A stretch of 64,000 nt of DNA, from the NCBI GenBank assembly GCA_021797745.1, contig JAJZZD010000001.1, positions 1-64,000 of the forward strand, written 5' to 3'. Both the position numbers and the translations under genes were made by a program. Origin of the DNA: Microcaldota archaeon (GTDB lineage Archaea > Micrarchaeota > Micrarchaeia > Micrarchaeales > CABMGC01). Of this stretch, positions 20,461 to 21,144 are shown in pieces. Every line of letters starts with the position of its first letter. Position 1 is the stretch's first letter. The notes beneath the pieces were generated by a model. The model ran no database searches. It was not told the DNA's origin and saw nothing but the letters and a program-made list of their open reading frames with translations.

Positions 20461-20793
20461 CTACATATTCTTCTTTACCCACTCCCTCAGGTCCTCCTTC
20501 GGTATCGCACCAACGCTCATGGCTTCCACTTCACCGTTCTTGAACATCAGTGCAGTTGGTATGCTCATTATGTTGTACTTGGTGGCAATCGCCTCGTTCT
20601 CATCTGTATTTAGCTTTCCGAACTTCACCTTGCCCTCGAAATCCTTAGAGACCTCTTCTAGTACGGGACTGAAGATTCTGCACGGACCGCACCACGCTGC
20701 CCAGAAGTCTACAACAACCGGAATCTTAGACTTGATTACCTCTTCTTCAAAATTTTTTTCGTTAAGTTCTATTGTCATTTTACCACAGTGCAA
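20461..20793 (-). CDS. trxA: thioredoxin
   Basis: VVVDFWAAWCGPCRIFSPVLEEV. Confidence 0.95.
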   Translation of the reverse strand: MHCGKMTIELNEKNFEEEVIKSKIPVVVDFWAAWCGPCRIFSPVLEEVSKDFEGKVKFGKLNTDENEAIATKYNIMSIPTALMFKNGEVEAMSVGAIPKEDLREWVKKNM

Positions 20794-20858
20794 GCCGCGT
20801 AAGTGGTTTGCAGTATTTATTTGCGAAGCACAAATATATATCTGTTATATGCTTATTT

Positions 20859-20912
20859 GCAGTGTGATGAGTTTAAGGTCTGATTTATGATGACGATCTT
20901 GAGTGCTGATTG
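20859..20912 (+). ncRNA. candidate C/D-box sRNA overlapping the histone gene leader
   Basis: GTGATGA (C, 20864-20870) – GTTTAAGGT – CTGA (D', 20880-20883) – TTT – ATGATGA (C', 20887-20893) – CGATCTTGAGTG (12 nt) – CTGA (D, 20906-20909). Confidence 0.6.
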
Positions 20913-20913
20913 A

Positions 20914-21144
20914 ATGGCTGTCATTTCGGAGCAGGCAGTGAAGGGAATAATAAAAAAATATGCAGAGGTCGAAGGGATTAGCATCACTGATGATGCCGTA
21001 AAAACTATGTCTGATATGCTCAACAGAAAAGCAAAGGAAATCGCCAAGTTTGCTGTAAATAACGCGAAGACCCAGAAGCGAGAAAAGGTAATGAAAAAAG
21101 ACATATCTGCATATGACTTAAAGGTCGGATTCGATGAGCCTTGA
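20914..21144 (+). CDS. archaeal histone
   Basis: 76-aa histone fold: ISEQAVKGIIKKYAEVEGISITDDAVKTMSDMLNRKAKEIAKFAVNNAKTQKREKVMKKDISAY. Confidence 0.88.
   Translation: MAVISEQAVKGIIKKYAEVEGISITDDAVKTMSDMLNRKAKEIAKFAVNNAKTQKREKVMKKDISAYDLKVGFDEP

Follow-up and report, generated by a model that had tools for sequence, protein, structure and literature searches.

The window, by which we mean the whole stretch of DNA analysed, comprises bases 1–64,000 of contig 3 of an 806 kb genome in 9 contigs. Within it, direct reading finds boxes C, D', C' and D in that order at 20864–20909 (GTGATGA-N9-CTGA-TTT-ATGATGA-N12-CTGA), immediately upstream of a histone-fold gene. The features of the locus are as follows.

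20461..20793, minus strand: thioredoxin gene (TIGR01068, 133.6 bits), the divergent upstream neighbour; it lies outside the element and bounds the promoter region
20832..20841, plus strand: TATA-box-like element AAATATATAT, 23–32 nt upstream of box C, read directly
20864..20870, plus strand: box C, GTGATGA, read directly; RTGATGA in 66/69 family loci and TTGATGA in the other 3/69
20871..20879, plus strand: D' guide GTTTAAGGT, 9 nt; both length (8–13 nt) and sequence vary across the family
20880..20883, plus strand: box D', CTGA, the same in 69/69 loci of the family and 25/25 of the sister family
20887..20893, plus strand: box C', ATGATGA; RTGATGA in 68/70 family loci
20894..20905, plus strand: D guide CGATCTTGAGTG, 12 nt; pairs with nt 31–40 of tRNA-Leu(CAA), with C34 as the nucleotide indicated by the N+5 rule
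20906..20909, plus strand: box D, CTGA, read directly; within the conserved block at 70 family loci
20914..21144, plus strand: histone-fold gene, 76 aa, predicted to share the transcript (PF00808, 22.6 bits against a cut-off of 21.4)

The four ordered boxes, their archaeal spacing and the canonical 12 nt D guide are all present at the positions given in the initial annotation of this DNA, and box D ends, as had been stated, 4 nt before the histone ATG at 20914, the intervening letters being TTGA. Boxes D' and C' are separated by TTT. The spacing between boxes C' and D is 12 nt here and in every pattern-matched locus. At 9 nt, the D' guide falls short of the usual length of about 12 nt, so that the usual D' spacing, which is not strictly defining, is unmet; homologues of the D guide in Thermococcus likewise have short D' spacers. 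Box C' is degenerate (ATGA[ACG]GA) in several sister-family genomes. The distance from the end of box D to the start codon is 4 or 5 nt in 53 of 70 loci, which span most genera; it shrinks to 1 nt in the majority of genus g12 and reaches 11–17 nt in a few loci. The downstream gene had been called an archaeal histone; it does pass the Pfam histone model, but only just, and is better described as a divergent histone-fold protein. Its orthologues score higher, up to 34.1 bits, and no sequence match to the window histone was found among solved structures at E ≤ 0.01.

It had been claimed that four ordered boxes were unlikely to arise by chance within 64 kb, and this was borne out when the arrangement was expressed as the strict pattern RTGATGA-N7-15-CTGA-N0-12-RTGATGA-N9-14-CTGA, for which calculation predicts 2.6e-4 occurrences per genome and 2e-5 per window. 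No match to this pattern was found in 240 Mb of composition-matched random DNA (first-order Markov), and it occurs twice in the 806 kb genome. The second occurrence, outside the window (G000:C4:60146-60194), contains two 12 nt guides that both match 23S rRNA (9 and 10 contiguous pairs), the two sites lying 30 nt apart, near G1880 and A1910 of the genome's own 23S; judged by these matches, it would represent the standard dual-guide pattern and provides a useful working control for the analysis. When a permissive threshold was applied to Rfam, 13 C/D-box models aligned end to end to approximately the interval of the element, the best being sR5 at 22.0 bits against a gathering cut-off of 40. At the curated Rfam thresholds the element gives no match, as is to be expected since each Rfam sR family is guide-specific. 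No conserved terminal stem flanking boxes C and D was found in the family (mean 0.74 pairs versus 0.70 in shuffled pairings), and at the window locus three pairs are possible (CAG/UUG); by inspection, most sister-family loci have a short D'/C' stem (GC..GC). The genome encodes L7Ae-family proteins, fibrillarin and a Nop-domain protein.

The D guide CGATCTTGAGTG predicts the target CACTCAAGATCG, and the D-guide target that had been predicted, CACUCAAGAUCG, is matched by GACUCAAGAUCU in the genome's tRNA-Leu(CAA), the anticodon arm of which reads ACAGA-CTCAAGA-TCTGT. Guide positions 2–11 pair with nt 31–40 of this tRNA (G000:C3:109456-109465) through 10 contiguous Watson–Crick pairs without mismatch, and a match of equal length was found by only 4 of 300 shuffled D guides. 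The initial annotation had placed the methyl group on the fifth nucleotide of the target, a C, and that nucleotide proves to be the wobble C34, which faces G5 of the guide and which by the N+5 rule is the predicted site of 2'-O-methylation. No rRNA target for the D guide was found in the genome's own 23S, nor in the 16S of one correctly oriented relative; the G000 assembly, rated 90.6 % complete, contains 23S, and no 16S rRNA gene was found in it. The target decamer lies within a tRNA-like pattern in 69 of 78 family genomes and in 19/19 of those of best quality. This pattern also catches some antisense copies of the leader, which were separated by eye; leucine tRNAs here carry GAGTTC, not GGTTC. 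Guide and tRNA hardly vary at all, so that covariation between them cannot be demonstrated, and inspection by eye revealed no co-variation between guide position 12 and tRNA position 41. The tRNA-Leu(CAA) gene itself (G000:C3:109423-109523, L055:5423, outside the window) was missed by ARAGORN and found by the Rfam tRNA model. Its T loop appears to hold an insertion of about 13 nt, probably a non-canonical intron, and many other tRNAs of this genome are longer than usual, which suggests introns.

The D' guide fared differently. A target, ACCUUAAAC, had also been claimed for this 9 nt guide, but the best match has 7 contiguous pairs and 137 of 300 shuffled guides do as well, so the claim cannot be sustained and GTTTAAGGT is probably without a target. 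This fits published archaeal tRNA-targeting sRNAs, in which, according to PMC7994747, citing Lui 2018, the second guide is usually without a target. With respect to the modification itself, Cm34 was seen in the tRNA set of PMC7668247 only in other tRNAs, that of Pyrococcus furiosus tRNA-Leu(CAA) having been predicted. The present RNA is predicted to guide methylation of C34 of tRNA-Leu(CAA), Cm34 itself being inferred without RNA data.

A TATA-like stretch had been reported some 25–30 bp upstream of box C, and AAATATATAT indeed occupies this region. In an alignment of 69 family genomes, the six positions from −29 to −24 relative to box C are 88–100 % A/T, and using box C as the reference point for the alignment gives a sharper A/T signal (mean 0.969) than using the ATG (0.893). 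The usual distance from TATA box to transcription start in archaea is about 25 nt. Because the TATA spacing is fixed to box C, we infer that transcription starts at, or a few nucleotides before, this box; most likely, then, transcription starts at box C and the 5' end of the sRNA is the 5' end of the transcript. Since box C', the guide and box D fill the space before the ATG, there is no room for a second promoter.

In the GTDB genome collection, at least 118 stretches contain the block consisting of box C', D guide and box D, TGATGNNGATCTTGAGTNCTGA. Among the matches listed are Micrarchaeota, Thermococcus, Nitrosopumilus and its relatives, Thermoplasmata, Diapherotrites and Heimdall-, Thor- and Bathyarchaeota, with a single non-archaeal title, that of a Proteobacteria bin. 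This bin (L173) has thaumarchaeal-like sequence and a ‘Marsarchaeota’ bin (L159) has a Micrarchaeum-like histone downstream, which suggests mis-binned contigs. Within the family, 72 of 79 genomes contain the block, nearly always as a single copy, and in 70 of these 72 it lies directly upstream of a histone start codon on the same strand, with the same histone orthologue immediately downstream in 70/70 linked loci. The core of the D guide, GATCTTGAGT, is identical in 68 of the 70. The 7 family genomes without the block are also without an intact histone orthologue (no match in 5, a paralogue only in 1 and a gene cut by the contig end in 1). In the two block-carrying genomes where linkage is absent, G050 and G055 (L327, L329), a separate C/D-like gene carries the C34 guide in its D' slot, and direct reading of the G055 histone leader shows that it has no element; retention of the guide in a separate gene implies that the guide is what selection keeps. 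The converse is seen in genus g16 (G027, G028; L246, L247), where the guide reads GATCTTTAGT, leaving the base facing C34 unpaired, while the tRNA target is unchanged and the boxes are intact. No other copy of the guide was found there at ≤1 mismatch. The guide can thus be lost while the leader stays, and this natural guide mutant is compatible with a function in cis, with drift or with the existence of another guide.

The initial annotation had looked to conservation of the boxes upstream of histone genes in related genomes, and such conservation extends beyond the 70 family genomes to the sister family. There, 24/25 loci are histone-linked (by HMM or by eye), and among 10 further genomes that fail the exact pattern, 9 have the guide and a degenerate box C' directly before the histone gene; for the tenth (G203), a later start was chosen in the readout and linkage is undecided. 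The block also occurs in 15 genomes belonging to other families of the class, with no histone downstream. As linkage is found in both the family and its sister family and the block lies elsewhere in other families, the association looks like a single event at the base of the order that has been kept since.

We consider it very probable that the leader is a genuine gene for a C/D guide RNA, joined to the histone gene and sharing its promoter, with production and processing of the sRNA, methylation and the partition between sRNA and mRNA all inferred in the absence of RNA data. Besides this absence, the points that weigh against the reading are the short D' guide without a target, the lack of a conserved terminal stem in the family, the altered guide of genus g16, the sub-threshold Rfam scores and the sighting of Cm34 by PMC7668247 in other tRNAs only. 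The earlier proposal that the leader is a C/D 2'-O-methylation guide is supported by the boxes, the tRNA target and conservation, two of the outcomes named in advance as refuting it (no complementary target, no conservation in relatives) having failed to materialise, whereas the suggestion that the histone leader doubles as this guide, or that the guide is processed from it, stands only as an inference from the single shared promoter. Judged from its distribution, selection acts on the guide, which is conserved archaea-wide and is retained elsewhere when a leader loses it. The boxes are short and of low complexity, and an A/T-rich leader might resemble them by chance; given the absence of matches in random DNA, the 70 conserved family loci and the archaea-wide guide, this reading was rejected and can for practical purposes be discarded. 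Also rejected, as very improbable, was the possibility that the conserved stretch encodes an N-terminal histone peptide (MM.ILSAD) translated from the RTG of box C'. This RTG is in frame and open in many loci, but no more than 40 of 65 family loci have it in frame, 8 of those 40, including the window genome, have an in-frame stop, and boxes C and D' fall outside any such reading.

It is possible, though not what we favour, that the leader acts mainly in cis, so that L7Ae bound to k-turns by the start codon keeps the histone from being translated, much as L7Ae represses its own mRNA through the leader, with guide activity secondary or absent. L7Ae-binding k-turn leaders are known on l7ae and nop5/fibrillarin mRNAs, and in Sulfolobus L7Ae represses translation through them (PMC5539422; PMC6298567). 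The histone leader resembles these in having a putative C/D-type k-turn near the start codon, which L7Ae could occlude, and the 4–5 nt distance at most loci and the retention of boxes in g16 are in keeping with such a role. The known leaders, however, have a k-turn without a guide, whereas the histone leader has both motifs of a complete guide RNA and a predicted target in a tRNA; repression in cis needs no specific 10 nt guide, yet GATCTTGAGT is the most constant part of the element and matches the tRNA. The cis reading also sits poorly with G055, which keeps the guide and not the leader element, and with the presence of the same block away from histone genes in other archaea. A different, and in our view unlikely, explanation is that a self-contained sRNA gene, equipped with a promoter and a 3' end, merely abuts a separately promoted histone gene, their linkage being only inherited. 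A single insertion in the ancestor of the order could indeed have produced the arrangement, and PMC7994747, citing Tripp 2017, gives about 20 % of archaeal C/D sRNA genes a TATA-like motif of their own and states that 5' overlaps (7 %) lower downstream transcription. Against mere adjacency, the 23–32 nt before the ATG are box C' and guide, so that a second promoter would not fit, the main A/T-rich block keeps its position relative to box C, and the linkage has persisted over dozens of genera despite changes in the flanking spacers and D' guide.

On our preferred reading, that of a guide RNA gene fused to the histone gene, RNA polymerase would start at box C and produce a primary transcript of the form 5'-[C/D sRNA]-histone coding sequence-3'. 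The two C/D motifs would bind L7Ae, Nop5 and fibrillarin, and the resulting RNP would shield the first ~46–50 nt, while trimming or cutting by nucleases near box D would leave the guide RNA. This RNA would direct 2'-O-methylation of the wobble C34 of tRNA-Leu(CAA), a modification that would keep this tRNA accurate on UUG codons. Histone could be made from transcripts not turned into RNP, or from the transcript body surviving a cut just past box D, which would be an almost leaderless mRNA with 4–5 nt before the AUG. Nearly leaderless mRNA is a normal form in archaea. At loci with a 1 nt gap, the tail of the sRNA and the start codon could hardly both be kept, and we infer that the two products would compete. 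More speculatively, and with limited confidence, we suggest a two-way RNA switch present since the root of the order, in which each leader transcript would become either a wobble-methylating RNP or histone, free L7Ae, Nop5 and fibrillarin would couple the two outcomes, and a single cut past box D would free both the sRNA and a leaderless histone mRNA.

The RNA class is known. A Pyrococcus C/D sRNA for C34 of tRNA-Leu(CAA), one of four wobble-position guides, is attributed to D'Orval 2001 in PMC7994747. It shares with the present element its RNA class, tRNA and predicted nucleotide, and the block TGATGNNGATCTTGAGTNCTGA occurs also in Thermococcus; however, the Pyrococcus sRNA is not reported at a histone gene, and the Thermococcus loci found show no histone downstream. 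In six model archaea, about 7 % of C/D sRNA genes overlap the 5' end of an ORF, an arrangement that the same source, drawing on Tripp 2017, describes as rare and costly to the downstream gene. Such genes are similar in that the sRNA lies upstream of or overlaps the start codon and depends on a shared transcript. The histone-leader element differs from them in that it has been kept at one gene throughout an order, that the sRNA in its entirety serves as leader and that the promoter is set on box C. The tRNA-Trp intron guide (sR50 type), which serves Cm34/Um39, is likewise of the C/D type, acts on a wobble C34 and is carried within another transcript, but its host is the target tRNA itself, whereas here the host is a protein-coding mRNA.

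The fixed fusion of such an RNA with a histone leader is not described in the searchable literature: full-text searches, with most subscription journals outside their scope, turned up no account of a C/D sRNA placed at a histone gene. The genes for archaeal C/D sRNAs are said to vary greatly among related species and to be seldom tolerated at the 5' ends of genes; here one guide has stayed joined to one gene throughout an order, and the promoter keeps its register with the sRNA rather than with the start codon. A guide block found archaea-wide is also tied to its tRNA target in the Micrarchaeota lineage, and a chromatin protein and a guide for RNA modification appear to share a single promoter. 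The locus therefore lends itself to a clean test of two questions: can the leader of an mRNA serve at the same time as a modification guide, and is the supply of archaeal histone linked to the translation machinery?

Another long-kept linkage between an sRNA and a gene is seen in Nitrosopumilus relatives, where in most thaumarchaeal loci (L109, L113, L123, L124, L136, L147 and others) the same block lies ~10–45 nt upstream of one conserved gene (MKSLTEYLTF.VKTRRAFVNIT..), the product of which looks like a member of the YjbQ/UPF0047 family.
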